From Xiphias gladius (lineage: Eukaryota; Chordata; Actinopteri; Istiophoriformes; Xiphiidae): a DNA stretch of 64,000 bases. A program made the translations under genes and the position numbers. Numbering within the stretch: the stretch's first letter is position 1; each line of letters opens with the position of its first letter. Of this stretch, positions 687 to 62,259 are shown piece after piece. Location: NCBI RefSeq assembly GCF_016859285.1, contig NC_053414.1:1802517-1866516 (forward strand), given 5' to 3'. The notes beneath the pieces were generated by a model. It did not search any database. It saw only the letters and a program-made list of their open reading frames with translations, and had not been told where the DNA came from.

Positions 687-1441
687 ATGGACAAACGTTT
701 TCTGCTGGTCGTGATGTGTCTGCAGGTTTTCCTGCTCATCACAGCCTTCACTTCGACTGATGCAGCTGCTCTGGAGAAAGATGCTCATCAACAGTCACTT
801 GGTCAGGTAAGAGGATGCACTGCTGCTCAGGTACTGTGAGGAGCTTTTCTTGTGTTGTCAGAAGGTTCCTGATTCACATGGTCTTTTCCCATTGGACTGT
901 TAAAGTGTAAATGTCAAACATGTTGCTGGGAGAGAGCTGCAGCACAAACGTTGTTAGTTCTGTTTAAAATTGCAGTAACTTTTTTATTAATTCAGAGATT
1001 ACCAATTCAACAAGTGTGGTTAAACAGTAGAAGAAGGTAGTTTTCTGTGTATATTAATTTGTTTTTGGTTTTTTGTAACATTTTGTTACAGGAAGGAACT
1101 GCAGAAAAAGGAGAAGAAAAAGGAGTGAGGTCAAGAATTCGGATCAGGAGAGACTGTTCGAAATATCTAGGAGCATGTCGCTCTTTTCACCCAGTAAGCT
1201 TGCACTGTGTTGGGTTTTTTTTCTCTTCTGTACATTTTGCAATATATTCATATGCTACATTTTGAAAAATGTTGGAAAAAAAATAGCCTAAACATTTGAC
1301 ATCTCAATGTGCTCGTCTCTGAAAAGGTTGATGACAACTGTTGCAGTGGTTTGTTATTAAATAGATTACACTGCATCTCTCTCTCCTACTGTTTAGCCAT
1401 CATACAATCCCAGACCTCAACCTACACCCAAGACCACATAA
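687..1441 (+). CDS. Unrecognised small secreted peptide precursor, three exons
   Basis: The exons are 687-806, 1092-1193 and 1397-1441. All junctions are in phase 0 with GT-AG borders, and together they encode 88 residues. The ATG sits in a strong context (gccATGg). Residues 1-25 form a classical signal peptide: MDKRF, then a leucine/valine-rich core ending near TDAA. A Glu/Lys-rich spacer follows, then an Arg-rich stretch ending in a dibasic RR. Immediately after it comes the segment DCSKYLGACRSF, with two cysteines in a CX6C arrangement, and then a Pro-rich tail ending PKTT. Exon 3 encodes only the last 14 residues. The layout fits a precursor cut after RR to release a disulphide-looped peptide, which would be a hormone, cytokine-like or antimicrobial molecule. 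I could not match it to calcitonin, urotensin, MCH, hepcidin, LEAP2 or chemokine patterns. The 3' UTR probably runs into the assembly gap. Confidence 0.6.
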
Positions 1442-1500
1442 CATCTTGAGGAAACATAACCACATCAGCATGATGGAAACAGACGATTTCACCTTCTCAC

Positions 1501-9800: not shown

Positions 9801-12800
9801 ACACTGTGAGTACTATTAAAACAACAGAGAGGTGTCACACATCCTTGAATCATTGAAATGTGTAACATTGCTTTTTAAATTGTTTTCAGATGTTCTTCAG
9901 GATGTTCAGAGGTCTTTTAGGGGGTTCAAGAGTTCTTGGAGGTATTAGACCCTGAATCAAAAGGCATGCCTTTAAAAGCGTACTAGCCATTTTTCAGGGT
10001 GTTCAAGGGGCTCCTGATGGGGTTCCAGTGGACTTTGATTGGGTTTTGTCAATTCAGGAGTGTCAGGATTTCTGAAGTCATGCAAGGTCTTTGAATGAGT
10101 TCAACATTTAGGGGGTTCCAGATGCTTTTCACTGTGTTCCAGATTTTACTAACAGGGTTCATAAGTCCTTGTGAGGTTTTATGGTGGTCTTTGGGGGCTT
10201 TTGAGAGGATCTTTGAGATTGTTACATTGGTTCCAGAAGTTCCTCAGGACAAAACAGTGTTGCATCATCTAGAATGGCGTTTTAGATTATTGTTCAGTTA
10301 TTCGAGAACCTCAGGAACCCTTCATAAGTCATTAAGAGGATTCAGGTTTTTTGGGAGGGTTTTGCTGATTATTCAGGAAGTTCCAGAGTTCTTAGAGAAC
10401 CTAGATATTCTAGGGTCTTAGAACATCCCTATATTTTCTGACTCTACAACATTCTAGGGTCAGAAAATACAAAATCATTCTGTTTAAGGGTTAGGGTTAG
10501 GGTTGGCCAGGGCATGTGACATCCATTAGCTATACCATTTATCCTTTTGAGGGTCGCAGGGGAGCTGGAGCCAGTCCCAGCTGACTTTGGACAAGAGGCA
10601 AAGTACACTTGGCCAGTACGTCTGAAGATTCTCGGTCATCCAGGTCATGGTATTCCTAAGAGCTTTAGGAAGGCAACTGGACTTGCTTGAAGTTTTTGAA
10701 GAGAACCTTCAACCTTTCAGGAACCTCAAGTCCAGTTGCCTTCGTGTAGAAATTAGATATGCCTGGACAGGTCGCCAGTCTATCACAGAGCTTACACATC
10801 GAGATAAACAACCATTCCTGCTCATATTTACACCCACAGGCAATTTTAGGTCACCACTTCACATAATCTGCATGTTTTTGGATTCTGGGCGGAAACCAGA
10901 GTACCCAGAGGAAACCCATGCAGGCACAGGGAGAATATGCAAAAATTCTACACAGCAGGGCCCCGGCCAGCTGGCACGTTCCAACCCAGAACCTTCTCAC
11001 TATGAGGAAACAGTGCTAACCACTACACCACATTTAATAATATTTATTTTTTTCTTCTCCTTATTTATTTTAATTGCTTTGCTTAAGACTTTTATTGATT
11101 ATCAGTCAACATGTTATAAAAGAGGGGAAATATATTTGCTCAGTAAATTCATCTTGTAATCACAGATGTTTTATTAATATCAGTGCTGTCGGTTTTTGTT
11201 TATTTTATGTTGTCTGAACTGTTTGGTATTTAGAGTCTCCTTCTCTGTGTTTGATGTCTCAGCTCTGAATTTATTAAATCAGAATCTGATCTCTGATTAT
11301 CTCTGACTTTATGAAACAGTTTAAGCTTTTAAAATCCACCAGCCCACCTGTGGGATTCTTTGGCCTTGGCATTTGTACTTTAGGTGTGTTTTGGTCTGTA
11401 CCAGCATCAGTCTTCACACATCCTTGACAAGTTATACAACATTTGAAAGGTTTAAGTCTCCTGACTTTTTAGGATTTCAATATCCCTGCAGCAGCTGTTG
11501 ACACAGAATTGGTTCAGGCTTGTGGGTATGGTTCCAAAGTGTTTTCGACACTGAAGGTTCTACTACAAACATTATATTCTCTTTTTTTATCCGATAAAAA
11601 AAAAGGCCAGGAAACAAAACTTATATTTCTACCGTGTTTGTGCCTCTGTAACTTTGGTTCAGTATCTCTTATCCTCATTCTAACCTTTTGGTTGTAAAAT
11701 GTAAAGAGTTACCTTTCAAAGGATACAAGGGTTATGACCATGATCAAAAGGGTTGAAGAACAGTAACCTTTTTATTTTGGGTACATTATTATTATTTGGG
11801 GGAATGTTGGTCAAACATAATTATAAAGAGTATGGTCTAGACCTGCTATATATGAAAAGTGCCATGAGATAACTTCTGCTATGATTTGGCACTATTTCAA
11901 TATACTATACTATACTATACTATAATATAATATATAATTTAATTGAAATGAACTGAATTGAATTGAATTGAACTGAATTTTCAGGCTTGTGCAAAAAAAT
12001 TAGGGTGTCTGATAAGGGGATAATCCTCATTCAGTAAAGAGCTTATTTTTTTCATGTAGAAACACCCTGAGCTCTCAGCTGATTCTTGAAACCCTTCCTC
12101 TCTTTGTTCTGTAAGTATTTCTCAGCATCTGCGCGTAGTGGGCAGTCTACTCGTCATCCTGTTTGTCTTCATCATCACTTCAGTCCTTGTCAAAGTTCCT
12201 CTGGAGCCGCTGCCATTCTTCTACATTACCATGGTGAAGATTGTCATCATTAACTGTGAGTTTGTTTGTTTGTTTATGGCCTTCGGGGTGGTGCTGCAGG
12301 GCAGTCTGTTGGTTGATCAGCTTGTTTGTTTGTCTCCAGCTTTTGGGGCAGTGCTACAGGGCAGTTTGTTTGGGATGGCCGGTTTTCTGCCAGCTTCTTA
12401 TACGACTCCCATCATGAGCGGTCAGGGACTTGCTGGAACCTTCGCTGCCTTTGCCATGATCTGCGCCATCACAAGTGTGTTCAATAACTTACTAATAACT
12501 CATCAATATATCACCAGTATCATCTCTGATGTTGTGTTGTTGATGTAAAGTTATTCTCTTTGGTTGAAAAATGTGACATCATAAGAATTATAAATAATAC
12601 TCTGTTTATTTTCTCTCTTCTTTCCTTGCTCTCCTCTCCTGTAGGTGGGTCTGAACTTCATAATGCAGCATTCGGTTATTTCATCACAGCCTGTTTTGTT
12701 ATTTTTCTGTCCCTCCTCTCCTACATCCTGCTACCTAAACTGGTAACTCTTACCTTTACATCACACATACCTGACACGCACATACACACTCACACAACTG

Positions 12801-15800: not shown

Positions 15801-18395
15801 ACATTTTATTGTCATTAATAGCGTGTGTTATCAACCTTTAATCTCTTCCTGCCTGCTGACCTTTGACCTTTAGATCTGGCTGTTGGCTCTCTCCGTCTGT
15901 TTTACCTTCACTGTCACCATTGGCACATTTCCCGCAATCACCGCCGACACCAAATCAACCATCGATGACAGAGACTCGTGGGGTCAGTCTACAACTTATC
16001 TTGTTGTTGATGTTGATGGTGTTGTTGTTTGTTCTTCTTCCCCTTCTTCTCCGTCTTCGTCTTCCCTTTATTGTTGATCTTGTTGTCGTTGTTGGTCTCC
16101 TTTTATTGTTCTTGTTGTTCTTGTGGTTTAACTTGTTATGTTGTTCTTGTTTTTGTTGTTTGTTCTTGTTAGTTGTTTTTGTTGTTGTTGATGTTACTTG
16201 TCTGCACAGCTATGAATGCTGCCGCATTTACAATTCTGATTCATCTTCTACATCATCCTCAGAGGAAAACTCATTCAAGTTTATTTTTCAGCTCAGGAAA
16301 TGTATTTGGTGAAGAACACACTGCCGTTTTTCTTATTGTGGTTGTGTTTCTCACTTGTTTAAACATGTTGTTTATATCAGTTTTAGAGTTTTTTTAACCT
16401 TGACCCTGACCTCGCCTGCTGTATATGAACCTGAGATCAAGTCTGAAATGTTTTTGCTCACCTTCCGCCTCTTTCTGCTTATCCGGTTGATTTGATGTCA
16501 TTTTATGTGACTTTAGGATTTTTCTTGTTCTGCTCTCTCAGATTTTGCCCCCATGTACTGTTGAGTTAGAGTGGTTATTCACATAAGGTCTTTAATCCAT
16601 CAGTAATCACCTCTGGAGTGGGATTTTTGACCTTTGACCTCTTTGTGGAGCTTCTCCTCTCATTGATCACATGACCACTGTCAGAATGTGCAGGTGGAGG
16701 TCATACAGGTGGAGTCACTAATTTCACTTCATGGATGATTTTATGTTCAAAAAGGAGAAAACACACAAAATGTATTATTATGACCCTCCCACACTTCTCT
16801 TCATAAACCTCTTTAATTTCAGAGTTTTCTTGTTTGTTTTACAGACCTGTACTTCATTCCAGTCAGCTGTTTTCTGCTCTTTAACCTGTGTGACTGGGGC
16901 GGACGGAGCTTAACGGCTGTCTGTATGTGGGTGAGTTTTATATCAATCATCCAACAGCTCCTGATCAGTTTTAATAATCCACAGAGACAGGGAAAGCACC
17001 AACACGTCTTCTCTCTAAACCTGGTTCATATAGTCATTCCTCTTTCTTCACTCAGTTCATACAGTCTGTCCTCTGTCTTCATCCAGCTGGAAGACATAAA
17101 GCAGATACATTGCTTATTGGTCGGTTATTGTCTGTGTTTCCAGCCACAGAAAGAGAGCCTGTTACTTCCTGTGTTCATCTTGTGTCGCCTGGTTTTCATC
17201 CCTCTCTTCATGCTGTGTAACGTCCAGCCTCGTCTCCACCTACCTGTCTTCTTCCACCATGATGGCTTCTTCATCGTCTTTATGATCTTCTTCGCCTTCA
17301 GTAATGGATACCTGGCCAGTCTCTGCATGTGCTATGGACCAAAGTAAGAAACTGATCAAACATGATCAATAATCAATAAACCTTCATGTCTGTTTTTACA
17401 TCGTGTACAGCTGATCACTGTGCAGATACTTCAATAATAATCAAATCGATGTCAGATCAGTATGATCATCAACATGTATTAATAACACTATTGATAGTGG
17501 TTAGTGGATGGTGATAGTATTTAGGTACCAGAAACACTTGCAAAAACTGATCCTTTATTTCTGAGGTTGCCAAGATCACAACAAACCAAAGACATGGACT
17601 AAATCATCTAATGCTGGTACTTCCCACTATCAGCCTTTGATGACAGACTCAAGCACTTCCCTGAAAGTGGAACAAATTACTCAATGACAATTTTTTGCAG
17701 CCATCAAACAATGAACAGGAGAAGGAGCTCTTTCAACATTCAGCTTCACTTCACTGAACGTCCTAACTAAAACACTTTACACTTCATCATTGCTGGATTC
17801 TGACAAGTATTACCTTCACATCAAACCTTTTATTAAAAATGTATTATGGTTTTACAAAACATAAATTTAACATGAAATGTTAGTGTAGTTTATTTGATGG
17901 TGTTGATGATGTGAAGAGGATGAAGGAGACTCCGCTGACACTGTCTTGATTGCATATAAAGGTTTATTACAAAGAAGAACAGCGTCAAGTCAAGCATCTG
18001 CAGATCTGCTCGTGAGAGGGTGTGCAGCCAATGAACCACTCTGAAAATCAGTCTTGACTACCGACTCTTAAATAAGGCAGTTGTTTTCCTAAAAACTGTC
18101 ACTAACGTATGGTTTCGATCACAAAGCATAAACTTCCTTTCCCAAACTGTGAGGCACCCTCTGAGGACCTTTGACCTAGGGCCTCTATAAACACAGCTCT
18201 ACATATATAAACATAGACCTCATTAGTAATAAACTTGACATTATGAAATAAAATATTAATATCAGATCTCTCTTGTTCCACAGGAACGTTCTTCCTCATG
18301 AAGCAGAAACAGCCGGAGCCATCATGGCTTTCTTTCTGTCTCTGGGTTTGGCTTTAGGAGCTGCTCTGTCCTTCCTCATCAGAGCACTGGTCTAA
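3830..18395 (+). CDS. slc29a1: Equilibrative nucleoside transporter 1 (SLC29 family)
   Basis: A plasma-membrane facilitator of nucleoside uptake. Coding exons: 3830-3855, 4566-4647, 9633-9805, 12116-12255, 12340-12474, 12645-12742, 14573-14651, 15117-15184, 15874-15982, 16845-16930, 17144-17343 and 18284-18395. Phases agree throughout and give 435 residues, against 456 in human ENT1. TM1 carries the family motif LGTLLPWNFFMTA; the Met in FFMTA is the ENT1-type residue, where ENT2 has Ile. NSS and NQT in the first extracellular loop are possible N-glycosylation sites. TM4-5 carry VLQGSLFG, PASYTTPIMSGQGLAG and AFGYFITAC. The hydrophilic TM6-7 loop is coded by exons 7-8. The C-terminus is GAIMAFFLSLGLALGAALSFL. 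Exon 4 must use the acceptor ending at 12115, because the AG at 12124-12125 breaks the frame. AATAAA lies at 18922. ENT2 is less likely, given the MSGQGLAG region. Confidence 0.93.
4325..4508. repeat. Minisatellite in slc29a1 intron 1
   Basis: Degenerate tandem units of the form ACACAACATACAGTAAAAC, each about 15-20 bases. The array ends about 60 bases before exon 2 of slc29a1. Confidence 0.8.
5060..9010 (+). mobile_element. Decayed non-LTR retrotransposon (LINE), split by a Tc1 element
   Basis: Sequence on both sides of the Tc1 insertion reads as one LINE. Endonuclease-side text at about 5100-5343 (leading to LLDIILTNRP) continues at 6718 with IRVFPLDFTDRCPTACI. Reverse transcriptase follows: YQSGFRAGHSTVTAA near 7610, GSMLGPLLFTIFMNDLG near 7870 and the catalytic LYADDAIIY near 7940. 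The 3' tail near 8960-9010 has the GTTCTCAAT text seen in many fish LINEs. Numerous stops and frameshifts show it is dead. It lies in slc29a1 intron 2. I do not assign the clade with confidence. Confidence 0.85.
5346..6717 (+). mobile_element. Tc1/mariner element with intact inverted repeats and broken transposase
   Basis: Terminal inverted repeats begin CAGTTAGGTACGTAAG at 5346 and end with the complement at 6717. TA target duplications lie at 5344-5345 and 6718-6719. The transposase is in pieces. The N-terminal helix-turn-helix part is at 5704-5946 (KRPGRPRKTTK), and the catalytic core is at 6057-6493 (WTDEAKINLYQND, then VFIDDVTADR, then DNDPKH). The text after DNDPKH jumps to the 3' end, so the third catalytic acid (E of DD34E) is missing. 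The copy is non-autonomous. It is inserted in the surrounding LINE and is therefore younger than it. Confidence 0.95.
9890..10440. repeat. Degenerate minisatellite in slc29a1 intron 3
   Basis: Repeated variants of a roughly 20-30 base unit built from GTTCCAGAGTTCTT, GGGGGTTC and CTTTGAGG-like text. Units diverge strongly, so the array looks old. The reading frame across it is incidental. Confidence 0.65.
10505..11035 (+). repeat. Fish interspersed repeat with a second repeat inserted
   Basis: This matches the same dispersed sequence found at about 14790-14975 and 36148-36335: GAGGGTCGCAGGGG, then CCCAGCTGAC, then GCCAGTCTATCACAG. The copy continues through GAAACCAGAGTACCCAGAG to CTAACCACTACACCAC. 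It is interrupted at about 10616-10760 by a segment with a perfect 17-bp inverted repeat (10669-10685 and 10727-10743, GAAGGCAACTGGACTTG and its complement). Exact element boundaries cannot be set by eye. Confidence 0.75.
11860..11975 (+). repeat. LINE 3' tail ending in microsatellites
   Basis: The text TGAGATAACTTCTGCTATGATTTGGC is followed by ATACT repeats and then GAATT repeats. The same tail type recurs near 23650, 42540 and 50715, in each case running into a different short repeat. This is typical of the 3' ends of fish LINEs of the L2/Rex type. Confidence 0.6.
12256..12339 (+). other. 84-nt open intron carrying a decayed duplicate of the next exon's start
   Basis: Intron 4 of slc29a1 is 84 bases, a multiple of three, and has no in-frame stop. 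Bases 12258-12310 align with 12318-12370 at an offset of exactly 60, with about 42 of 54 positions identical. The upstream copy has lost the splice acceptor (CCAG has become TGGC) but still reads AFGVVLQGSLL, against AFGAVLQGSLF in the real exon. Confidence 0.75.
13085..14245 (+). mobile_element. hAT-type transposon remnant with a BED zinc finger
   Basis: The N-terminal text MAERKKRSKAWLHFIKKDD (13262) and CNICKMVISSKCGNTSNMLKHL (from about 13770, in a second frame) together resemble the ZBED/hAT transposase BED finger (KVWxHF, CxxC, NTSNMLKHL). The ends carry GATGGGAATCAAGAACC on the left and its near complement ATCGATTCCCAT on the right, as expected of inverted termini. The catalytic and dimerisation regions are missing. 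It lies in slc29a1 intron 6. Confidence 0.7.
14715..15100. repeat. (CCTGTR)n hexamer array split by an interspersed repeat
   Basis: CCTGTA/CCTGTG hexamers occupy about 14715-14788 and resume at about 15018-15098. Between them sits a copy of the fish repeat also present at 10505 and 36148. The simplest reading is insertion of the dispersed repeat into a pre-existing hexamer array. The array ends just before exon 8 of slc29a1 (15117) and supplies part of its pyrimidine tract. Confidence 0.8.
15346..15655 (+). repeat. Interspersed element in slc29a1 intron 8
   Basis: It starts with ACCTCCACCAAGGAGGTTATG and ends with CAGCAGAGGTATGCGCTCT. In the middle are AGGATTATGCAAGAACTGCTG and GGCCAGGGAAGAACCCATT. 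The text is familiar from a widely dispersed fish repeat with partly complementary ends, a non-autonomous element. It has no coding content. Confidence 0.6.
15998..16200. repeat. TTG/TTC-rich simple sequence in slc29a1 intron 9
   Basis: Low-complexity TTG, TTC and CTT triplets. The reading frames over it are artefacts of composition. Confidence 0.75.
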
Positions 18396-26742: not shown

Positions 26743-29700
26743 GTCAGTAAAAAGCGGGATTAGAATCTGAGTGTCTGGTCTATTTCTCTAATTCCAGCAC
26801 AGAGTACAAAACATTTGATTCACAGAATCAAACCTCTTCCTTGTGTCAGAGTTTGATGTCTGAACATAGGCATGAATTTTGCCTCAGAGGATATAAAATA
26901 AAGAGTAAAAGGAATTAAATCACTTAAATCCTGAAACACCCTACTTTACACCAGTTACACCAGAGACATCAGTTTATTAGGAAAACCTGAACAGTCCAAA
27001 CCAGCAAACAGCTCTGCAAGAAGTTCATACTGTTCAGTGGTAGTTGACTCTGTGCTCATTACTGAGGCGGCTGTCTGTGCCAATGTGGTATTAGACTGTA
27101 CAGCTCTTTCTCATAATTTGTCCATACGGTTAATGTAAATGTGTTTGTTGTCTGGTGGAGCCTCATGCCTGCTGGAACTTGTTTGTCTGACGCAGGTTCT
27201 GTTAATGATCAGAGTCATCATAGTATTCTTCAGTGTCAGTACCTTTTTCTTCTGGTAGATCAGCGGAGTGGTGAAGAAAATGATGTCAGCTAGATAGAGA
27301 GAGAGTTAGCATCAGTTTGTTACGGTCTATCTGAAGCAAACTCTCAGACCAGTAAACTGAATCAGAATCAGAATCAGAGAATCAGCCTCACCAAGGATCA
27401 GGATGGTGACTCCATTAAACAAAGCTCCGACATACGTCATTACCCACATTACAGCGGCCAACTGAAACGATCAGAGAATATACATTTAGAAAATACACAG
27501 AGTACACACATTCAGAGAACACACACTCAGAGAGCACATAGCTTAGAGAACACACAGAGAATGCACAGTGAGAGAAAACACACGTAGAGAACAAACATTC
27601 AGAGAAGACCCAACTTGGAGAACAAAAATTCAGGGTACACACAACTTAGAGAACACACACTTAGAGAACAAAGATTCAGAGACCACTCAGAGATCATACA
27701 TTCAGAGAACACACAGTAAAAGAACATTCAAAAAACACAGCTTTGAGAACATAAATTTATAGATTAAACATTCAGAGAACACGCAGTTTAGAGAACACAT
27801 TCAGAGAGCACATGCTTAGAGAACATACATTCACAGAACACACAGCTTGGAGAACAAACATCTACAGAAAAAACAACTGAAAACGTTTAGAGAACAAACA
27901 GCTTAAATATTTGGAGAACAAACATTTAAAGAACAAACATTTAGAGAACAAACAGCTAAAACCTTGGCAGGACAAAGTGCTGAAATGTTTAGAGAACAAG
28001 CAGCTGAGACAGACAGAGGATAAACAAGACAGAGTTGCAGTTAGAGCTGCCAATAATCACAGTTAGTTTTTCAGTGGGTTGTTCGCTGAGTGGTGATTAT
28101 CTGTTTGAAACGTGAACTGGTTGGTGTTGAACCGTGGGGTTCTGCTTCTTTCAGACAGTCACCCAGCCACCCTGGCCTCTCAGCAGCTCCCAAGTAGCCG
28201 GGGGGAAAGTAGGAGCTATCCTGGGTCGGCTCTGCATAGCTGTACCCAATGTACAGTGGGTAATTATCCAATGTAAGGAAGAAAAAAGCAAATATAACCG
28301 GGTTGAGATAGAGCAGCAAACAATGACACAGCTGAAGACTGGACCAAAGATTCACTAGTGAATCGACAGCTTCACCTTCAGGATCAGGTCCCTATGAACC
28401 AACACAGTCTGGTCACCACCAATCCACCTGTTGATCTCCCCTCCATCTGACCCTCACTGCTGAACCATGGAGAACAAGTCTGTCTGGTTTGGGAGTTCCT
28501 CTAAGTGTTCCTTCCAGAAAGGACCAGAAGTTCTTCTCCATGGTCTCCGTGAGCTCCTCCCACAGAGTTTTCACTTCAGTGACCACGGAAGTTTTAGTCT
28601 TTCTTATTTCCAGATAATTGTCTGCTGCTTCAGGAGTCTCCTGGTCAAACAAAACGTGAAAGGACTCCTCCAGCTTCAGTACACCAACAGATTCTCAAGT
28701 TGTCACCACGATAGGCTCCAACAATCTTCTGACCATAACTCTGACTGGCAACCTCAGCAATTGATGCTGGTGTTCAATGAATCCCCACGAACAACAGTCT
28801 GTGACTTCCTATCACTGACCTTTAGACTCAAAGAGACGTTCCTCTCTTTGTCAGGGAAAACTCCAGCACAGCAGCTATCAACTGGGGGTTCATGAGTATC
28901 ATCACACCTGCCTGACACCTTTCACCCCAGGGGATTCGGGAATAGGAAAGTGCAGCACCATACAAGAGTTTGGTTATAGAGCCAGAGCTAAATCCAGATA
29001 ATGCTCCACCTCCTTCACCAACAGCTTCGTTTCAATCAGACAGCTGATGTCCCACGTACTTAGAACCATTTTTCATAGCCCGGGGACAGCTCGCAGCTTG
29101 CCACCCACCTGGCAGCATCTCTGACCATTACCTCCAGCCATGTAAGTGGTGGGACCACACGGTTTGAAAGAAAATATAATTGGATAAAAGTTCTAGACAC
29201 TGTGATTTTGGTTCATCACATGGATACCTTGTTTATCTAAGTACGAGCTAGCATTAGCCACCGTTCTAACTCATTCTGTATGAATCTGACCTTCAGAGAG
29301 TCGACCAGGTCCTCGACCAGCAGCAGCCTCCTGGTCTGACTGCTGAACCAGTTCAGGTGGATCAGAGACTGATCAGCCAGCTGTCGGACTGACTCTGAGG
29401 ACACCGAGATGTCCCTCTCCAACAGAGACCTGACAGAGGAGAACAGAGGAGGTCAAAGGAGGTCAGAGGAGCTCAGTGTAGGTCAGAGAAGATGAGAGGA
29501 GGTCAGAGGAGGTCAGAGGAGGAGAGAGGAGGTCAGAGGAGGACAGAGGTGGTCAGGACTTTATCTGGTAGTTTATAGACACACTTGTGTTGTCTTACAT
29601 ATGTACCCATTATTATTACACTGACTTTTGTTATTGGCTAACTGTTTTAGAAACAGTCGCATACACAAATCTCACAGCAATCTGACATACACTCACCAGG

Positions 29701-32700
29701 CACTTTATTTGGAACAATTGCGTACATGCTTATTCATGCAATTATCCAATCAGCCAATCATGTGGCAGCAGTGCATTGTATAAAATCATGCAGATACAGG
29801 TCAGGAGCTTCAGTTAATGTTCACATCAGAATGGGATAAAATGTGATCCCAGTGACTTTGACCGTAGCACGATTGTTGGTCCAAGACAGGTGGGTTTGAG
29901 TATTTCTGAAACTGCTGATCTCCTGTGATTTTAACACAAAACAGTCTCTAGAGTTCTTACTCAGAAATGAGCCAAAAACAAAAAAACATCCATTGAGCAG
30001 CAGTTCTCTGGATGGAAACACCTTGCTGATAAGAGCGATCAAAGGAGAATGGCCAGACTGGTTGGAGCTGACAAAAAGGCTACGGTAACTCAGATAACCA
30101 CTCTTTACAGCTGTGGTGAGTAGAAAGGCATCTCAGAATGGACAACACATCCAATCTTGAGGTGGATGGGCAACAACAGCAAAAGACCACGTCAGGTTCG
30201 ACTCCTGTAAGTCAAGAAAAGAAACCTGAGGCTGCAATGGGCACAGGCTCACCAAAACTCAGCAGTTGAATACCAGAAAAACGTAGCCTGGGCTGGTGAA
30301 TCTGGATTTATGCTGAGGCAGCAGATGGTAGGGTCAGAATTTGAATCAAACCATGAATACATGTACCCAACCTGCCTTGCGTCAACAGTCCAGGCTGGTG
30401 GTGGTGGTGTAATGCTGTGAGAAATGTATTCCTCACAGACTTTGGGCCCCTTAATACCAAACATTCATGGTTTAAATGTCACAGCCTCAGAGTATTGTTG
30501 CTGACCACGTACATCCCAATTTACAATCTTCTAATGACTACTTCCAGCATGATAATGGTCCATGTCACAGAGCAAAAGTCGTCAAACTGGTTTCATGAAC
30601 ATGACAGTAAGTTCAGTGTGCTTCAGTGGCCGCCCCAGTCACCAGATCTGAATCCAGTAGAACACCTTTGGGATGTGGTAGAACAGGAGACTGGCAGCAT
30701 GAATATGCAGCTGAAAAATCTGCAGCAATGATGTGATTAGTCATGTGAACATGGACCAGAATCTCAAAGGAAAGTTTCCAACATCTGGTGGAATCCAGGC
30801 CACAAAGAACTGAAGCTGTTTGGGAGCAAAGGGCGGCCCTACCCAGTATTAGTATGGTGTTCCTAATAAGGTGCTTGGTGAGTGTAATTTCTTCAAGATA
30901 TACGAAGCTGGTTTTTATCCTTATTATTAATTCTGATTCCTTTTGGAGTGTGTATATGTTTGAGTGTGTGTTTATGTTTATGTGTGTGGGGGGGCTTATA
31001 TTACTATCTTTCAGTTTTAAACCACTGTAGTGAGGACATTTCTGCATTGTGAGGACATTTTGGCTGGTCCTCACTACATTTGAAGGGTCAGACTTGGTCT
31101 AGGTTCAAGTCAGAATCGGGTTTAAGTTCAGGGTTAGGGTCTGGGGAATGTTTTATGTAAGTGAGGGTCCTCGGAAGTATAGAAAGACAAACGTGTGTGT
31201 GTGTCTGTTACCTGAATGGATGACCTTCGTCTGATTTCTGGACAGCCTGAATCACTGATTTATAAACCCTACAAACAGGAAGTAGACAACTATTAGGATG
31301 AAATAATTTCCTGTGAATGAACTCATTCTTCACTCTGAAATGATTTCATTATTTATCTCAATATTTAATGAATTTATCTCAATATTTAAGAATTTATCTC
31401 ATTTAAAGATCAGAGTAGCAGTGTGCCGGATCATCATCGTTTTCATGTCTAACAGCAGGACCTGTTGTTATTCACTGCAGACACTGAGTGTTGTGATTGG
31501 TTATTACCTGAAGGTGATGGTGACACAAAGGAAGGCCAGCAACAGGTAGGACACCACACTGATGATGGACAGCGTTGCCACGGAGATGAGAACCAGTAGT
31601 GACAGACCAAACGCCGCCCCCGACTTCTTTGGTTGTTTCCAGTGGACGAGTTTTAAGGCTGCAGGGTGGGGTTAGATTTACACAGAAAACACAGTGAGAG
31701 AGGACACACACATTATGTCCTCACAGGCAGAGACAAAAACATATTCATCAGACAGACATAAAGGGTAAAATACATTCATGTGGGTAACTTCAGTGCTGTG
31801 TCCATAAAGGAGTATAAGTTCAAATATGGACACAACAATTCGGATATGTACCCAGGGGCTTCACCATAGAGCCTGATGGGTATCAGAATCAGGTTTTCAC
31901 ATATGGTAACAGTCAACTGAATTAACAAACAAAACAAACAGTGCGCACTAGCACAGTGAGGCAGTTATCCATAGTTCAATCTTGAAATAAATTTAAAATA
32001 ATAAAAACTCAAATGTGATACTAAATCCTGAACTCCAGGCTGATGCTGGAGTAATGAGCCTCCTGCTGCAGCCTGTGTCGAGCTGAACTGACTGAACGTC
32101 GTGTCAGTCTCAATTATTAATTAATAATAATACATATATATAAATAATAATGAATATAAGAAGAGGAGGGTCTCATTTATTGGAAGACAGTCAAACATCC
32201 CAGATGGTATAAAAAGTCTCCCAAACGATCAGAACCTGCCCAAAACTGTTTTTTACAAGTCCAAGTAAATAAAAAGTCACCCAGACAGTTGAAAAACCGT
32301 CGAGTCTGACAACATTGAATCCAGTTGTACAAATACACCAGCATGGATCAAGCTCTTTCAAAAGATAAAATATGTGAAATGTGACCTACAGGTCACAGAG
32401 AGTGTTGCAGGGTCAAAGTGGAGGAGACTGGAAATCATCAATCAGATCAGTACTAGTGTTAACAGAAAGGCAGAGCAGGGCCTTTATTTGTTCCTCCTGT
32501 TAATTTTATCCAAGTATATTATTTAAATACTGTTTTTAGATTCTGTAAAATTTACAACAGTCTGGCTCTGGTGATTCCTTGTGCTGTCTTCAAAGAAAAT
32601 ATTGTTCACACTCAAACACTCAGCTCTGACACCAGCACAGTGAGAATGATTCAGTTTCATTTATCAGACCCGCCACCCCCACCACCCATGTCACAGCCGC

Positions 32701-45600: not shown

Positions 45601-48600
45601 TGGCACAACCTGTGTTTTAAATCAAACCCTCCTGTTGGACTCAGGTCTGGCAGCTGCAGCGTTTTATTCAGAGAAAACATTTCTGTAACATCTGAGATAA
45701 AAATATGATAACATCACCACAGCTGAGCCCCAGTCAGTTTAAATTCACAACAAACTCCAAGTTAAAGTCATTTAAACTCATCACAGCAGTGGTTTCAAAT
45801 GTTTTAACGCATTAACTGTAACCTTGTAAACTTTCTACTCCTGCTGATCATTTTCTAATAATCAGGGTTCAATTCATTTGTATGAAAATAGGAGTGCTAC
45901 AGAGATGATCCATCACAGAGTTATCACTCTATCAGTTATAATATCATCATGTGTTGACGCAGCTGACAGCAGAGTCTGTTTTACGAACTCTCCCTGCAGT
46001 GCATTCAGGGACGCTTTAACATCAGATATATCACAGTCAAATGCTGAACAGAAATGTTTTCACTTTGACAAAATAAACATCACATACTCCTGTTTGGTTA
46101 AAAGTCATGAATACTTTAGAGCAGCCTGATATAAAGTCTCATACATCAGATTGTCCTTCAGTGAAACACAGATTCATGGGAATGATCTCTGCTATCCGCT
46201 GCATCAGCTCACTATGATAGTCTAACTAAAACTAAAAGTGTCTCAACTTCTGACGTTATGTTCCAAGACTCAAAGACTTCTTCCTGTGATCAGTTTTTAT
46301 AGAATTACCTTTCTTGACCTTGGAGGAACAAAGTCATTGAGTAGAGCTACATTTCAGTAAGGTGCTGACCAGAAGATGTCTGTATTTAGGCTATATAAAT
46401 GCTGGGAAACAATGAACCATTTTCAGCACAAGAGCTTCCGATAGCAGCATCCAACCAAACACTTACAGTAAAGGTATGGGAAAAAAACAAACAAAACTAA
46501 AGTCAGGAACTGAAACTTTTGTTTCCACCTCAGCTGAAGAATAATAATCAGACAAGTCAGACTAATGATGGATTAAAAACAACAGGAGACTGAAACCTCA
46601 GTGATCATCTGCTGAGAGTTTGATGGTTATTTCTTTGTAAATTAGAAACCAAGAAACCATCAGAATATACAGTTTGGTTTGGTTCTGTCATTTACTCACT
46701 GACTGGGATTCCTCTCACTTACTTAATGTCTCACTCTTTTTAGACTCCTACTGAATAATAATAATAAACTTTATTTGTATAACACTTTTCCTAACAAAGT
46801 TACAAAGTGCTTCACGATAGGATAAAACAACAATAAAACAAATAAATTAAATGAAATAAATTAAAATTCACACAGAAATTAAAGCCTTCTTGAAAGAGAA
46901 TGTTTTAAGAAGTAATTTAAAAGCAGTGGTAGATCTAGCAAACCTAATCTCAGCAGTTGAGTCATTCCAGAGTATGGGGGACCCCACCGCAAAAGCACGA
47001 TTGCCCTTACTCATAAATTGGGCTCTGGGAACGACCAGAAGGCCACTATCAGCTGATCTAAAATGACGCCTAGGTTCATATAGGGTTAGTAGATCCCTGA
47101 TATACCTAGGGGCCTGGTGGGACTGTTGTAAATCCTTGAAAGTCAACAATAAAATTTTAAAATCAATCCGAAAAGGAAGAGGAAGCCAATGCAGGGGAGG
47201 CCAGAATTAGAGTTATATAGTCTTGTTTTCTTGAACCGGTGATAATCCTAGCAGCAGCGTTTTGAACCAACTGAAAGCGATGGAGGGAAGCCTGCATAAT
47301 ACAAAGGTCAGACTACCTTTGACTCATAATATAAAATGATCAAAACTACATGTTATAAAACATAATAGTAATAATATGAAATAAAAATATAAAAAATCCA
47401 GATACCAAAAATCTGTTGGGGCACAGGTGGAATGGGCATGGCACGTCTACGTCCTCATGTTGACTCTGGAGTCACTCTAGTGTCCAGACCTCCTGAAACA
47501 AAGCCACTGGGCCTCGCCTCCTTCATCTATCTTTCTCTGGTGACACTACTCCTCTGGTTTCTGGTCCTCCGCTGCCTCACCTGGACTGCAGGAGCAGGTG
47601 AGTCATCAGATCAGTTGTGGTTGTAGAGTTATTTTAACATCTTCAATGAAGAACCCAGAGCATTCCACACTCTGCTTCTGAGAGACTTCAGAGTCTTGAT
47701 TATCTGATCAACACTGTCCTCCTCCATTTTTATTGATTAGCTCAGTTTGCCAATAGATCGATAGGTCAAGCTGACCTAACCCGGCTGGACCACAAGGTGA
47801 ACTACACTGCTCAAAAAAATTGAAGGAACACTTTGAAAAACATCAGATCTCAATGGAAAAGATCATGCTGGATATCTATACTAATATGGACTGGGTACTG
47901 TGCGAAAGGATGTCACATCGTTTGGTGGCAAAGAAAATTATCAACCTACAGAGGGCTGAATTCAAAGACACCCGAAAATTAAAGTGAAAAAATGATGCAG
48001 CAGGCCAGTCCATTTTGCTGAAACTCCATTTTGCTGAAACTCCATTGCAGCAACTCAAAATGGTACTCATTACTGTGTATTGCCCCCACGTGCTTGTATG
48101 CATGCCTGACAACGTTGGAGCATGCTCCTAATGAGACGACGGATGATGTCCTTGGGTGTCTCCTCTCAGATCTGGACCAGGGCATCACTGAGCTTCTGGA
48201 CAGTCTGAGGTGCAACCTGGCGGCGTCGGATGGACAGAAACATAATTTCCCAGAGGTGTTCTATTAGATTTAGGTCAGGCGAGCATGGGGGCCAGTCAAC
48301 ATTATCAATCCCTTCATCCTCCAGGAACTGCCTGCATACTCTCGCCCCATGAGGCGGGGCATTGTTGTGCACCAGGAAGAACCCAAGACCCACTGCACCA
48401 GCGTAGGGTCTGACAATGGGTCCAAGGATTTCATCCCGATACCTAATGGTAGTCAGGGTGCCCTTGTCTAGCCTGTAGAGGTCTGTGCGTCCCTCTATTG
48501 ATATGCCTCCCCAGACCATCACTGACCCACCACCAAACCGGTCATTCTGAACGATGTTACAGGCAGCATAACGTTCTCCACGGCCTCTCCAGACCCTTTC

Positions 48601-51600
48601 ACATCTGTCACAAGTGCTCAGGGTGAACCTGCTCTCTGTGAAAAGCACAGGGCACCAGTGGCGGACCTGCCAATTCTGGTTTTCTAAAATGCCAATTGAG
48701 CTCCACGGTGCCAGGCAGTGAGCACAGGGCCCACTAGAGGAATCGGGCCCTCAGGGTCCCCTCATGAAGTCTGTTTCTGATTGTTTGTTCAGAGACATTC
48801 ACACCAGTGGCCTGATGGAGGTCATTTTGTAGGGCTCTGGCAGTGCTCATCCTGTTCCTCCTTGGACAAAAGGAGCAGATACCCGTCCTGCTGATGGGAT
48901 ATGGACCTTCTTCGGCCCTTTCCAGCTCTCCTCGATTAACCGCCTGTCTCCTGGAATCTCCTGCATGCTCTTGAGACTGTGCTGGGAGACACAGCAAACC
49001 TTCTGGCAATGGCACATATTGATGTGCCATCCTGGAGGAGTTTGACTGCCTTTGCAACCTCTGTAGGGTCCAGGTATTGCCTCATGCTACCAGTAGTGAC
49101 ACTGACCCTAGCCAAAAGCAAAACTAGTGAAAAACAGTCAGAAAAGATTATGAGGGAAAAAATGTCAGTGGCCCCCACCTGGGTCGTCTTGTTGTTGCCC
49201 ATCTAGTGCACCTGTTGTTAATTTCATTAAAACCAAAGCAGCTGAAACTGATTAACAACCCCCTCTGCTACTTAACTGACCAGATCAATATCCCAGAAGT
49301 TTAACTGACTTGGTGCAATACTCTGATTAAAAAGTGTTCCTTTAATTTTTTTTGAGCAGTGTACTTGAACAAACACCCTGATGAGAATACAGACTGTAAA
49401 AAACAAGTCATTACAGTTCAAATATTTCACTTCACACAAAATTTAAAATTTCAAATAAAACTCCTGTAAACTCCGCCCCAATAGCTCCTGAACTATCAGA
49501 AGTAATAAATAATAATGAATATTACATTCAGTACCTTGTTTCTCTGAGTTGTTTAAAGGTTCTGAGGTGGAAACATTCTGTAAACTGGTTCAGAGCTTCC
49601 TTTACCTCCATCACTGCTCTGAACACTGACTATGATAGATCATCAGTGCAGGTTGATTTTTATAGACAAGACAAATCTAAAAACTGATGGGGGATTTGGA
49701 CAATGATCAGCAGCAATGTTCAATAATGTCTGAATGAACATTAAAGGTCTACAAATCCACCAGTACAGACCCGTTAGATAAGACTGATAGAAATCAGTCA
49801 AACGTGTCTGTTTAACATCAGAGTAAATATTCTAGTTACAGTCTGAAAGTTAAATTTCCTCTGACTATATATCACATTCAATTTCTCTCTGTGCATCTCA
49901 GTGACTGAGGCTCAGGTGCAGAGGAAACTGGATTCAAACAGTAGATCAGTGTCATGTGATGTCAGATGTCAGCAGGGGTGGTGTTCGGCATGGTTACCTG
50001 CTCCTCCGGCTCCGGCGGCTGTAGCGGTGACAGTCATAGGCGTAGTGACCTCTCTCTCCACACTCGTAACACTTATCGTTGGGGTCAAAAGGTCGACGTG
50101 TTGGAGGTCGGTTGTACCGAGATCGACGAGGCATCCCGTTCGAGAGCTCAACCCGGACGCGACTCCCACAGACCACCCTGAAATAATAAATAAAATACTG
50201 AGGACTGGATTACAGCTGAAACAATGAATGAAGAATTGATAAGTTTATCTACAGAAAATTAATCAACAACTATTTTGATAATCAATTAACTGTTTCAGTC
50301 ATTTTTTAAACTGAAGTACCAAAAACTAATTTGTTCGTGCCAATTCAACTAGTGGAGAAAATAATCTGCAGATTACCTGTTAATGAAAATAATCTAATAA
50401 TAAAGTAGTATTACTATGTTTTCAGTTCAGAAGATCAGGTATTGTATCAGCGAAGATATTAAAACTAAACTCCAGGATAAATCAGTCTTTTCCAGAACAT
50501 CTAAGGCTATTTTCTTATTTTCCAGAAATTGCTTCATGACTGCAAATCTATGTTAAAAATTCCAGGTTTTCAAGCATGCCTCGAAACCCTAAATATGAAG
50601 GACTTATTGTTTCATGTGGATGGTATGGGGTGACTAATGTCACATGTAAGAGTCACTGTTCATGGTGGGAACTATTGGGTTTCTCTCTATAATGCTGTCA
50701 GGTCTCAACCTTACTCTGTAAAGTTCCTTGAGATAACATGTGTTATGATTTGTTGCTATATAAATAAAAGTGAATTGTGTTAAGGTAGACATGTTGTGTT
50801 TGATGAGTTTGATGTGTGTGAGGACTGACTTTCCGTCTAACCCCCGAACAGCATCATCAGCGTCTCGGGGGTCTTCAAACTCCACGAAGGCGAAGCCTGG
50901 AGGGTTTCTGGCGATCCAAACAGTCCTGAGTGGCCCATAGTACCCGAAGGCCCGCTCCAGCTCACCTTTCCCTGCCCCCATCCCCAGGTTCCCCACGTAC
51001 ACCTTTGTCTCTGTGGAAGACACAGACGAGGACAGGTCAGGAGTGATGGGTCGGGACCAGGGGTCAGGACCAATAGGGCAGGACAGACAGGGAAAATACA
51101 GATAATACAATACACAAACAGATTCAATTGTAAGAACCAATCAAGTCAGATTAAAACTGCAAAGCAGAGGCTTGCTCTGCTGATTGATTAAGGGCTCATA
51201 TGTAAATGTGGTGAAAAATGAATAAATGTTTTAAACATTATTCAAATGTTGCCTATTTCATTTTAACAAACTGAACTGTCTGCTTTGACTCATGTCCCTC
51301 TCTCTGGAGTCTGCAAAAAACTTGTTTTTAAACCCTCTTACATATAGGTAACCACTGGGTAACGGCAGAATACTAAACTGAGACAGCTTTATACTTATCT
51401 TCTTCTTAAACATTCAGCAAATAAATTATCCTCCACATGATTAAAAAAAATATACATAATAATATAAATATAAAGTTATCATATCAACCACACAGTAGCT
51501 GTAGAAGATCTCTAACTCAGACTAAAACTCCACATTAATTTCAGATAAAGTTTACAATACACAGATGGGCGACAAATTAAAAAGGAAAAACCAACTTAAA

Positions 51601-52987
51601 GTGTCTTCGTAAGATGTTGGGCCACCACGAGCCACCAGAAGCAGCATCAATGCTACTCAGCATTGATTCAGAACCCTCCAAATCTGGAACACGAACTGAC
51701 GGAAAAAACACTGTTAGGGGTTTTACTCAGCACAAGTTTGGACGCTAACTCAGCCAGCTTCGCGGTACACAGGTGAATTTACTAGGATAGAATTCTTTAT
51801 GTTCTCATACACACACTAGGAAACCATTATGTTCTTTAATAGCAACTGGACAAGTTTCTCAAAGAGTACTGCTTTCTTAGAAATGCAAAGGTCAAATGAA
51901 GGACGAGTGTTTGATAAATTGCTGACATTAATCATTCTGTCCAGAAAAATACTGAGCAAAAGCCAGTCTCACAACAAGTGGTTGTTTCTTTCAGCTATTG
52001 GAATGTCAGGTGCATTACCTTCTGCATGCTCCTGTGTCCTGCAACCAAGCATCCAAAAAGTAATCTCCTTGCAATGCAGACAAATTGTGCAGGACACAGA
52101 ACAATATGTGCGCATTGCACACAAATACCTGGGGCCTTTGAGAAGTAGACTTCCAATTTCTTTAATAAACCCCTCCATCTCCCCTTCAACCGTCCAAAGG
52201 CACATCCTACTGTTATTCCTGCATGGCTCAGTCTGCAGTTCAAGTGCCTCTCTTCTCTGTTGAAATGTCTATTGTCTGGGTACCCCTTTATCAGCAAGCT
52301 GAATATAGATTATGCAGGTCACCAAGAAGCTTAAGGGGCACCTGTTAGGATTCAATTTCCTGTGTATTCTACATGGAAACACACAGAATTTTAGAGGTAT
52401 AGACTTTGTGCACAATAATAGGGTCTTAGTATTTTTCAGGAGTTAGGGTTAGGGTTGAAGGCAGTAGTAGTCATCGTCCTGTTCATGTAATTTTTATCTA
52501 CATGTGGTAACCAGTGGCCAATAAATATTTTGAAAGGCCAGCCAAAAATGTTATTTGTGATTTGTTATGTTATTTTATGTAAAACAGACTACACCACTCA
52601 AACAAGGTAGAGTATCTAAGTATCCAACCAACGTTGATGTTTGTAAATATGTAAATGAAAAATACTTCAACAGACAGACAGTCTAATTACTGGGACATGG
52701 CTGGATGAGAGAATAACAAACATTGTAGGATTATTGATATACAGCAGGGGGGGTTGGGTTGTGTGGGAATCAGACTTATATTACTCACCAAGAGAGATGA
52801 TCCAATACAGCTTGCAAAAAAATTGAGTGGTACCCTTTACGGTTGTAATAGTCCTAGGAATTATTGCTAGGAGGAGTAATTGGGATATGGGACCCATCCA
52901 CAGTACAGACGGAAGCCCCATCTCTCTTCAAAGCCGTCCACGATCCCCTGCAATTTTTCCTCTCTTAGGCAGTAATGTCCATATAGG

Positions 52988-53064
<77 letters not shown>

Positions 53065-55280
53065 CCCAAACACAGAAATATACAGTTGCTTTACCTCTTC
53101 CAATCAACTCAGACAGGATTCTGAAGTCAGTGCCAGTCGCTAGGTTCCAAATGAAAACAGCAACCCTCTTCTTCAACTGCATGGTTTGGGGAAAATGTGT
53201 TTGCTCTTTGTCTAAAAGCAATCGAAGTGTACTACAAAGGATTTCAAAAGTGTCATCTCGCATATGAAAATGTGCAAGCCACTGGTCATCTGTGAATGTC
53301 TCAAGCACTATTGTCTCCCACCAATGTTGAGATCAAGGTCTAAGCGATATTGCTCTTTGGGGTATTGTGGCTATCACAGCAGTGGCAAAAGCAACTGCTT
53401 TTCTAACATTCTTCCTTTTTTTGTCTTGTCCTGTACTCTTTTGCAAGTTGCAATTGATGTTATCCTGCAAATCTCAATCACTGTAATAGCCCATACATGT
53501 ATATTAGTTCTTGAAACATTTTTGTTTTCTTCGCTAACCTGTGCAAAACAAATCTGGTGGTTGTCTTGCAATAGACTCAAGTAATAACCTTGGGTGGGGT
53601 CCTTTGACCTTCGAGCAGAAGTGACGTAAGCAGTAACGAAATATGAACATAAGTCAGCTGGGCACTTTGGGCACGCATGATAGACACAGGTGTAAACAGC
53701 GATGTTTCTCGGCTGTCCACTAGTGTTCGGATCACCCAAGATGCATGTTTGTGCCTGGTGTAAACAGGGTCACAGAAATAGAGCTGTATGCATCGGTCAC
53801 TGAAGCTCCTGCCAATAATGAACCCTCTTGCAAAGTCGCTTAGATCTCTTTCTCTTGCCATCTTGATACAAAATAAGAATCAACTGGACCTGCTCTGCAA
53901 TTTTATACATTCCACTATGCAGTGCACCTCTGTGGAAGCATCTGCATTCATTATGTTTCTTAACTCCTTTATTCAGGTTTTTCCTTTCATTTGTCACCCA
54001 TCTGTATTTCACACAGAATGAGGACTGTGGACTTTGTATCCCTGACTTCCATCACAAACATGTTGTGCAGAGACCTGTTCATATATATGTTCATATGGAC
54101 ACATGACTGTTGGTTGATACAGATGGGAATAAATCTGTGACAGGAGCCTGATGTCAACAAACTTCCACAACTTCTGTGAACTTTAGCTGCTGGTAACGAA
54201 GCTAACTGCCACTAACGTAGTAATGCTGATAACGAAGCTAACTGCAGTTAGCAAGCTAACTTTTGCTAAAGAAGCTAACTGTGGCAAATAAAGCTGACTG
54301 CTGCTAACAAACTAATACTGCTAACAAAGCTCACTGCAGCTAACAAAGCTAACTAACAATGCTAACTTGATACAGGAATTCCTCTGAGCTTTAAGTCGGT
54401 TTGTTAAAAATATTAACGAAAAAAAAAAATATATAAAAATATATAATATTTTATTGTATAAAATATTATTATTATATTCATATTATTACTGTTGCGTTAA
54501 TGTGTGAACAGTATGGTGCTGCTGAGATGGAGTTGATTTTAATTATAATTATTATTTAATACACGAGAATAAATAACGATCCTTTTCATTATTGATTCAT
54601 CTGCCGATTATATCCTCAGTTAATCAACTGATTGTTTGGTTTGTAAAACTTTTTGGTCAAACCCTTATATTATTAAAAAAAATATGTAAGGAAAAGCAGC
54701 AAATCCTCAAAGCTGAGAAGCTGGAGACATGAAATGTTTTTACATGAAAGAGACTTCAAATGAATCCATTCAGTCCCGAACAAATTTTAATAAATTGCTG
54801 TGCTTGTATACTGCTGCTTGTATGTTTCTTATATATATATATATATATTATATATTATAAAACATCACATTTTATAAACTATTAATATGTTTTCTGTGCA
54901 AAACCTTACTTTGTCAAGTCAAAGTAACTACGAACTGTCAGATTCATGCAGTGCAGTAACAGTGCAAAGTAGTAAGAAATGCTAACTGCAATATAAACTA
55001 ACTTAATATAAATTAAATATTTATATAAACCTGGAGCGATCAGAATTCAGACTGAATGATTAAATATTAAGATATTATTATTTGTTTAAAAAAAACAAAA
55101 ACAAAAACTTGTCAGTTAATGAATGTTAAAATCAAAATCCCACTCGCATAAGCTAGTGAAGCTAACTGCTGCTAACCGGACACACCCGACACTGTCGCGT
55201 ACCAGAGAGGAAGAGCTCCAATAACGACACATGAGAACACAGAGCAGGTTACCTCCTCCGTACCGACCGTATCTGGACAT
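41107..55280 (-). CDS. srsf7: Serine/arginine-rich splicing factor 7
   Basis: A nuclear SR protein in splicing and mRNA export. Exons in transcript order: 55280-55253, 51010-50830, 50177-49998, 42820-42752, 42467-42390, 42260-42213, 41550-41506 and 41140-41107. Phases agree and give 220 residues, against 238 in human. Residues 1-9 are MSRYGRYGG. The RRM follows, with RNP2 KVYVGNL and RNP1-like GFAFVEFED. The linker [11 protein letters not shown] leads to a CCHC knuckle, [14 protein letters not shown], which among SR proteins marks SRSF7 (SRSF3 lacks it). The RS domain is spread over exons 4-7 ([53 protein letters not shown]). The last exon is the least certain; if the exon 7 donor is unused, a stop follows at once. 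The poly(A) signal (complement of AATAAA) is at 40889-40894. Confidence 0.93.
42540..42640 (+). repeat. LINE 3' tail plus (AAT)n
   Basis: The text GCACATTGTAACTTTGTTACGAAAAGTGCTATATAA is followed by about 14 AAT triplets (about 42595-42635). This is the same tail class as at 11860 and 50715. It sits between RS-domain exons of srsf7. Confidence 0.6.
43030..43215 (-). other. Conserved-looking block in srsf7 intron 3
   Basis: On the gene strand this block has repeated CTAGA motifs (CTTCTAGATCGTCTAGAGCTGCTAGA), a hairpin TGGTCC-AAAGA-GGACCA, and a 12-base palindrome GGACCGCGGTCC. Base composition is balanced and it lacks the LINE and microsatellite features of the surroundings. In one frame it reads [15 protein letters not shown], which is RS-like. 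SRSF7 genes are known for an autoregulatory poison-exon region in this intron; assigning this block to it is inference. Confidence 0.4.
44050..45170 (+). mobile_element. L2-type LINE remnant
   Basis: The linker between endonuclease and reverse transcriptase is recognisable: [14 protein letters not shown] and [10 protein letters not shown], then [17 protein letters not shown], and after a frameshift the text for a proline- and leucine-rich start of the RT (CTAACCTCCCCTTTCTCTC, AAGATCCTTGAGAAAGC). Many stops are present. It lies in srsf7 intron 3, opposite to the gene. Confidence 0.75.
45171..46391. other. srsf7 intron 3, unassigned stretch
   Basis: Near 45340 there is text ACAGTGGGGTCGATTCAAG resembling the end of a DNA-transposon repeat. 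An 83-codon frame at 45878-46129 has no splice or family support. I see nothing else. Confidence 0.35.
46392..46399 (+). promoter_or_regulatory. Possible TATA box of a nested transcription unit
   Basis: TATATAAA lies on the plus strand inside the intron of the minus-strand gene srsf7. It is followed by a leader-like stretch ending in a possible donor (AAAG/GTATGG) at 46474/46475. It could drive the candidate exon at 47427-47597. This is inference. Confidence 0.3.
46745..47330 (-). mobile_element. LINE 3' part (RT C-terminal tail)
   Basis: The minus strand reads [20 protein letters not shown], then [24 protein letters not shown] and [10 protein letters not shown]. This is the standard C-terminus of L2/Rex-type reverse transcriptase proteins. 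It ends with TTATTATTATTCAGTAGG-like tail text near 46745-46765. To the right (47180-47330) it adjoins another dispersed repeat whose ACTTTCAGTTGG-type text is also common in fish. Confidence 0.75.
47427..47597 (+). CDS. Candidate exon of a nested small membrane protein
   Basis: Bounded by a plausible acceptor (GGGGCACAG before 47427) and a perfect donor (AGCAG/GTGAGT at 47597/47598). The ATG at 47432 is followed three codons in by a second, [11 protein letters not shown]. The predicted segment has one strong hydrophobic helix, [19 protein letters not shown], followed by RCLTW. Juxtaposition of a single helix and RC recalls cortexin-type or other small integral membrane proteins, but I cannot assign a family. 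The exon lies antisense inside srsf7 intron 3, between a LINE and a Tc1 element. A possible next exon starts at 49902 (phase-compatible, VTEAQVQRK), but it overlaps srsf7 exon 3 and is doubtful. This may instead be a chance open stretch. Confidence 0.3.
47805..49361 (-). mobile_element. Tc1-like element, transposase on minus strand, catalytically dead
   Basis: Ends begin CACTGCTCAAAAAAATTGAAGG and are inverted at 49361, with TA at 47803-47804 and 49362-49363. The transposase is nearly full length on the minus strand but in three frames: [20 protein letters not shown] (from about 49085), [16 protein letters not shown] (from about 48870) and the catalytic part at 48166-48648. The family DE motif of the first catalytic site has lost its Asp (LFTESRF), and the second site reads LVHNNAPPH with Asn where Asp is expected. 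The third Glu (NLIEHLW) is kept. It lies in srsf7 intron 3, in the same orientation as the gene. Confidence 0.95.
50700..50790 (+). repeat. LINE 3' tail in srsf7 intron 2
   Basis: The text TGAGATAACATGTGTTATGATTTG, then TGCTATATAAATAAAAG, belongs to the same 3' tail class as at 11860. It stops about 40 bases before the donor of exon 2. Confidence 0.6.
51562..51700. repeat. Dispersed repeat fragment
   Basis: The text GGGCGACAAATTAAAAAGG, then AAAGTGTCTTCGTAAGATG, then TTGGGCCACCACGAGCC matches a dispersed fish repeat I recognise by these phrases. No coding content. It is in srsf7 intron 1. Confidence 0.5.
51995..53865 (-). mobile_element. PIF/Harbinger transposon remnant
   Basis: Transposase segments on the minus strand. 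At 53310-53060: [20 protein letters not shown], then [18 protein letters not shown] and GRGKATVYF. From about 52990: [14 protein letters not shown]. At 52297-51995: [28 protein letters not shown], the diagnostic C-terminal [15 protein letters not shown] block of Harbinger. An (AC)n microsatellite has expanded within the coding part. Text at about 53860-53800 ([17 protein letters not shown]) may be part of the same element. The frame is broken. It lies in srsf7 intron 1. Ends could not be fixed. Confidence 0.8.
52989..53062. repeat. (AC)37 microsatellite inside the Harbinger transposase
   Basis: Pure AC dinucleotides sit between the codons for [10 protein letters not shown] and the segment leading to VDGFEERW. 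On the transposase strand the repeat encodes Val-Cys and replaces what is normally a short stretch around EVC. Confidence 0.98.
54190..54366. repeat. AAGCTAACTGC minisatellite
   Basis: Degenerate tandem units AAGCTAACTGCWGCTAACA, about 18 bases each, in srsf7 intron 1. Confidence 0.8.
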
Positions 55281-62247: not shown

Positions 62248-62259
62248 CTGCAGAGTGAA

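Follow-up and report, generated by a model that had tools for sequence, protein, structure and literature searches.

A candidate gene of three exons predicted to encode a small secreted precursor with a furin-type site and a two-cysteine loop in Xiphias gladius

The cysteine array of beta-defensins begins with C-X6-C, and allatostatin-C also has C-X6-C. In Agouti/AgRP and in venom knottins a basic cleavage site is followed by C-X6-C. Among the cationic peptides of invertebrate families, a C-X6-C loop is found in the thanatin type and a P/R-bearing tail in the proline-rich antimicrobial peptides of the apidaecin type. Teleost beta-defensins are described as small, secreted and encoded by three exons and two introns, with six cysteines that are divided between exon 2 (four) and exon 3 (two) (PMC11541337). 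Somatostatin and allatostatin-C have one disulfide, an active peptide located towards the C-terminus of its precursor and an FWK/IWK or FXP motif, FXP being present in some members only (PMC8851493).

We analyzed a window of 64,000 nucleotides from Xiphias gladius, which is the whole stretch of DNA considered here and contains neighboring genes of vertebrate type. On its plus strand, a three-exon model is found at 687–1441. Exon 1 (687–806, 120 bases, 40 residues, MDKRFLLVVMCLQVFLLITAFTSTDAAALEKDAHQQSLGQ) holds the predicted signal peptide and the start of the propiece, exon 2 (1092–1193, 102 bases, 34 residues, EGTAEKGEEKGVRSRIRIRRDCSKYLGACRSFHP) contains propiece, the putative cleavage site RSRIRIRR and the Cys62-X6-Cys69 loop, and the preferred exon 3 (1397–1441) reads PSYNPRPQPTPKTT followed by the stop codon TAA, behind an acceptor with a long pyrimidine tract. 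Introns 1 (807–1091, GTAAGA...TTACAG) and 2 (1194–1396, GTAAGC...GTTTAG) are both in phase 0. The join of 687–806, 1092–1193 and 1397–1441 comprises 267 bases including the stop codon and translates into 88 residues. A TATA box, TATATAAAG, is located at 633–641 with TATAAA at 635–640, ending 46 bases before the ATG at 687, and the start context is CAGCCATGG. With coordinates and frame verified, the structure claimed in an earlier note, phase 0 throughout with GT-AG borders and a TATA box upstream of the ATG, was confirmed. Searched with simple patterns, the promoter stretch 301–687 revealed only TTCCT at 593 and, at 597, a FOX-like TGTTTGT; no pattern for NF-kB, ISRE or GAS sites occurs there, which does not favor an immune-inducible promoter. 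An ATT microsatellite of 28 copies occupies 250–332, about 350 bases 5' of the exon 1 start codon.

The product reads as a hydrophobic leader, a charged propiece, RIRR60 and a basic C-terminal peptide. The leader core of 12 residues has a mean hydropathy of 3.0, and according to the (-3,-1) rule, cleavage is possible after residue 19, 20, 22, 24, 26 or 28. The dibasic RR forms the end of RSRIRIRR, which includes the furin-type RIRR at residues 57–60. The 28 residues behind it, DCSKYLGACRSFHPPSYNPRPQPTPKTT, have a charge of +3, a pI of 9.3 and a calculated mass of 3149.5 Da when reduced (2 Da lower with the disulfide closed) and contain Cys62, Cys69 and a proline-rich tail; the loop between the cysteines is SKYLGA and 19 residues follow the second cysteine. 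The leader, basic cleavage site, two-cysteine loop and proline-rich tail that had been proposed earlier are supported. Agreement with the general pattern of furin-processed secreted peptides (a leader and R-X-[KR]-R before the mature part) is given by hydropathy and motif only. If processed accordingly, the leader would be removed in the secretory pathway near residues 19–28, furin or a related convertase would cut after RIRR60, and the 28-residue peptide would close one disulfide loop between Cys62 and Cys69 and then be released. AlphaFold2, run on exon 2 alone as a single sequence of 34 residues, returned one helix over exon residues 5–32 and no loop (mean pLDDT 82.2, pTM 0.44, five-model means 57.1 to 82.2); a helix predicted from one sequence of this length neither shows nor excludes the loop.

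With teleost beta-defensins, the candidate shares small size, secretion (here predicted) and three exons with two introns, but its exon 2 has two cysteines instead of four and its exon 3 none instead of two (PMC11541337). Identity as a teleost beta-defensin is ruled out by the cysteine count of 2 + 0, and there is no Pfam match at cut-off. The likeness to somatostatin and allatostatin-C consists in one disulfide, predicted here, and a C-terminal peptide; the identity was rejected since the loop SKYLGA is without FWK/IWK or FXP and 19 residues stand behind the second cysteine (PMC8851493). The candidate also resembles the thanatin and apidaecin types by a C-X6-C loop or a P/R-bearing tail and by its cationic nature; those are invertebrate families, however, and no search gave a sequence match between them and the candidate. 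The Agouti/AgRP and venom knottin pattern is completed only by an alternative exon 3 considered below, whereas the preferred mature part has two cysteines, and no Agouti match is listed in Pfam for either version.

The searches for a family agree with the earlier note, which could not place the product in any known one: no match at cut-off was obtained in Pfam or NCBIfam, and in the PDB nothing below E 3.6 was found for the preferred product. In Pfam the 88 residues hit UPF0542 (E 0.077) and Slu7 (E 0.16) and nothing else, each sub-threshold, and in NCBIfam, which covers families of bacteria and archaea, no match. No PDB sequence matched the whole product at E 10 or exon 2 alone; the last 36 residues matched muscleblind-like 1 (E 3.6), which was dismissed as a zinc-finger look-alike. 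Pattern searches gave 19 hits in viral contigs and 81 in prokaryote contigs, among which no relative was confirmed, as expected for an animal gene. Five short peptide strings were not found in literature text. None of the papers listed for CX6C together with teleost concerned a peptide hormone, their topics being immunoglobulin-like proteins, channels, probiotic feeding and retroviral envelopes or endogenous retroviruses, and the papers listed in other literature searches yielded no candidate. A tblastn search of the window gave no convincing paralogue, the best match elsewhere (E 0.026) falling at 11190 in sequence that resembles a leader. Rfam at gathering score gave 0 matches for the whole window.

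Judged with splice weight matrices, donor 1 is equaled or exceeded by 23 of 7740 sites, acceptor 1 by 294 of 8742 and donor 2, which is only moderate, by 328 of 7740. Acceptor 2 at 1397 is equaled or exceeded by 661 of 8742 sites and by 114 once the longer pyrimidine tract is counted; over this longer tract it is strong. From ATG 687, 231 splice paths were enumerated. Among the 25 listed of these, the preferred model scores 14.5, one further path ties with it at 14.5 and another reaches 14.4, and the best path listed (17.3) ends at GEEKG and stops before the cysteine loop. Because the preferred path is equaled or surpassed by others, its splice score is not enough to fix exon 3, and the final form of the mature peptide depends on this choice.

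The frequency of such structures by chance was estimated in third-order Markov windows, 40 at the candidate's own thresholds and 30 per looser setting. The thresholds were fixed after the candidate was seen, which makes the test post hoc, and splice weight matrices, codon table and leader cleavage rule were drawn up by hand. At the candidate's own thresholds (TATA box, hydrophobic leader, two phase 0 introns), ATG 687 is the sole locus on both strands of the window. With splice 0, hydropathy 2.2 and a TATA box, there is one real locus, and any model occurred in three of 30 simulated windows, a dibasic site with paired cysteines in one and the candidate's splice total of 14.46 in none. Dropping the TATA box gives five real start codons, three of them with dibasic site and cysteines, and the splice total was reached in 1/30; at hydropathy 3.0 without TATA box, one real start codon compares with 1/30 for a model, 1/30 for dibasic site and paired cysteines and 0/30 for the splice total. 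The loosest setting (splice -1, hydropathy 1.8, TATA box) leaves two real start codons, 687 and 714, both of the same gene, with simulated values of 10/30, 5/30 and 1/30, respectively. In all looser settings no simulated window combined the candidate's splice total with a dibasic site and cysteines. That the gene-like structure of the model exceeds chance models is supported by these counts. A mere assembly of signals by chance, with no gene at the locus, is encouraged by the looser thresholds, under which without TATA box (splice 0, hydropathy 2.2) 13 of 30 simulated windows held a model and six a dibasic site with paired cysteines; it appears distinctly unlikely, as the candidate's own thresholds were reached in none of 40. 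Codon usage supports exon 1 with 12.6 bits but gives no signal for exon 2 (-0.6 bits) or exon 3 (-0.4 bits), and segment 684–785 is the only one in the first 9.6 kb among the best 90 of 118 coding-score segments. A real leader exon could belong to a gene that is disrupted or organized otherwise than modeled, with exons 2 and 3 being chance or decayed sequence or the transcript ending at GEEKG. The missing codon signal of both exons, the higher-scoring path stopping before the loop and the lack of a paralogue in the window speak for this. Exons 2 and 3 are, however, open and in phase, and a furin-type site followed by two cysteines occurs only twice in 1229 stop-free stretches, exon 2 being one of the two; we consider such a gene unlikely.

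At 1327–1449 (plus strand, stop at 1447–1449) a weak in-phase acceptor opens a frame with four further cysteines (CC-C-C) that reads VDDNCCSGLLLNRLHCISLSYC up to the stop, with a path score of 12.0. With its third exon there, or with an equivalent exon within the assembly gap, a real gene would encode a six-cysteine, knottin-like C-C-CC-C-C peptide, an array that the preferred model does not contain and that arises only via the weak acceptor at 1327. A CC-C-C frame lies downstream of only three of 1749 acceptor-like sites (score >= -0.5, both strands), 1327 included; with three such sites located 70–300 bases past donor 2, the post hoc chance is about 3 x 3/1749 = 0.005. A yTnAy branch-point-like site 14–47 bases before the exon is present for 1327, as TTGAC 28 bases upstream, and absent for 1397. 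Among PDB sequences this version matches a single entry, the tarantula knottin omega-Avsp1a, over C1 to C4, with E 0.35. Against this stands the weakness of the acceptor (AAAAG), which with the longer tract is equaled or exceeded by 1780 sites compared to 114 for 1397. In addition, CC-X8-C is longer than usual in knottins. In Pfam this version gave Conotoxin (20.5 bits, cut-off 25.1) and MDFI (20.1 bits, cut-off 27), both below cut-off. The former was compared with control tails from the window, two other CC-C-C tails and eight random ones, of which nine were scanned behind the same leader: four of nine unrelated four-cysteine tails matched Conotoxin as well, at 23.6, 21.2, 17.0 and 16.6 bits, and one of nine shuffled tails did at 15.1 bits, while for the mature part scanned alone the match was gone. 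Conotoxin homology was therefore rejected as an artefact, two unrelated tails exceeding 20.5 bits; because CC arrays behind this leader produce the match, it is uninformative on homology. Taken together, we regard an exon 3 starting at 1327 as rather unlikely. Use of both acceptors, 1327 and 1397, with a six-cysteine knottin or a one-loop, proline-tailed peptide made from one precursor and the array split by a phase 0 intron, is highly improbable. For the preferred model as a whole, namely that a real TATA-driven gene of three exons encodes a small secreted precursor which would be cleaved by a furin-type protease and release a one-loop peptide, we see about even prospects.

Beyond exon 3, an assembly gap of 500 N (1501–2000) begins 59 bases after the stop codon, probably within the 3' portion of the gene, and this gap could hide an exon. 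Behind it, 2001–2200 contains six ATTTA motifs and ATTAAA at 2179 on the plus strand. The dinucleotide-shuffle mean for ATTTA is 2.3 (P 0.018), and none of the four window stretches of like A+T content, the only such stretches, had as many. It is possible that 2001–2200 is the 3' UTR of this gene, an assignment made by inference.

The most probable role of the product would be that of a lineage-specific host-defense or signaling peptide. Host defense is slightly favored over a hormone because the predicted mature peptide is cationic and has a proline/arginine-bearing tail and because AU-rich elements occur in the possible 3' UTR; none of these three points carries much weight, and the scan of the promoter lends host defense no support. 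If the locus is transcribed, it would provide a secreted peptide without family in the searched libraries, of a sort that may escape genome annotation. Released by furin as a single loop, such a peptide might act as a new ligand or as a host-defense effector, and the choice of exon 3 decides between a simple loop and a vertebrate knottin.

The surroundings were characterized by Pfam scans of two sets of ten window segments, which gave matches at cut-off for five and four of ten, respectively. Nucleoside transporter exons (PF01733) are found on the plus strand at 12129–12470 (E 1.1e-13) and 17066–17344 (E 5.8e-23). Further matches at cut-off are a BED finger at 13.6 kb and Gemin6 at 56.8–57.2 kb on the plus strand, and an RRM at 50.8–51.1 kb and a CCHC knuckle at 50.0–50.2 kb on the minus strand, the latter two of which we take to be SRSF7. 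A reticulon exon (PF02453) at 31510–31671 is at cut-off, with a second segment at 29288–29452 just under it, both on the minus strand. DDE_3 at 48166–48747 (minus) and 30357–30728 (plus), both at cut-off, presumably represent Tc1-like transposase remnants. The ORF at 52931–53332 (minus) in our view resembles a Harbinger-type transposase, with no match in Pfam at E 0.1. At 59.3–59.9 kb (minus) we assume SOS1; this segment gave no Pfam match and only an unrelated one in the PDB (E 0.62). A long low-complexity stretch of GAG/CTC type at 62065–63697 leaves several reading frames uninterrupted on either strand.

Two other positions of the window show comparable exon arrangements. From the minus-strand ATG at 42886, three exons join in phase 0 into a model that has a hydrophobic leader and exceeds the candidate in splice total (25.1), without TATA box and without a dibasic, paired-cysteine mature part. 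The plus-strand ATGs at 20892 and 20898 open a model of three exons that combines a hydrophobic leader, a dibasic site and paired cysteines; it is without TATA box, and its splice total of 11.2 is lower than that of the candidate.
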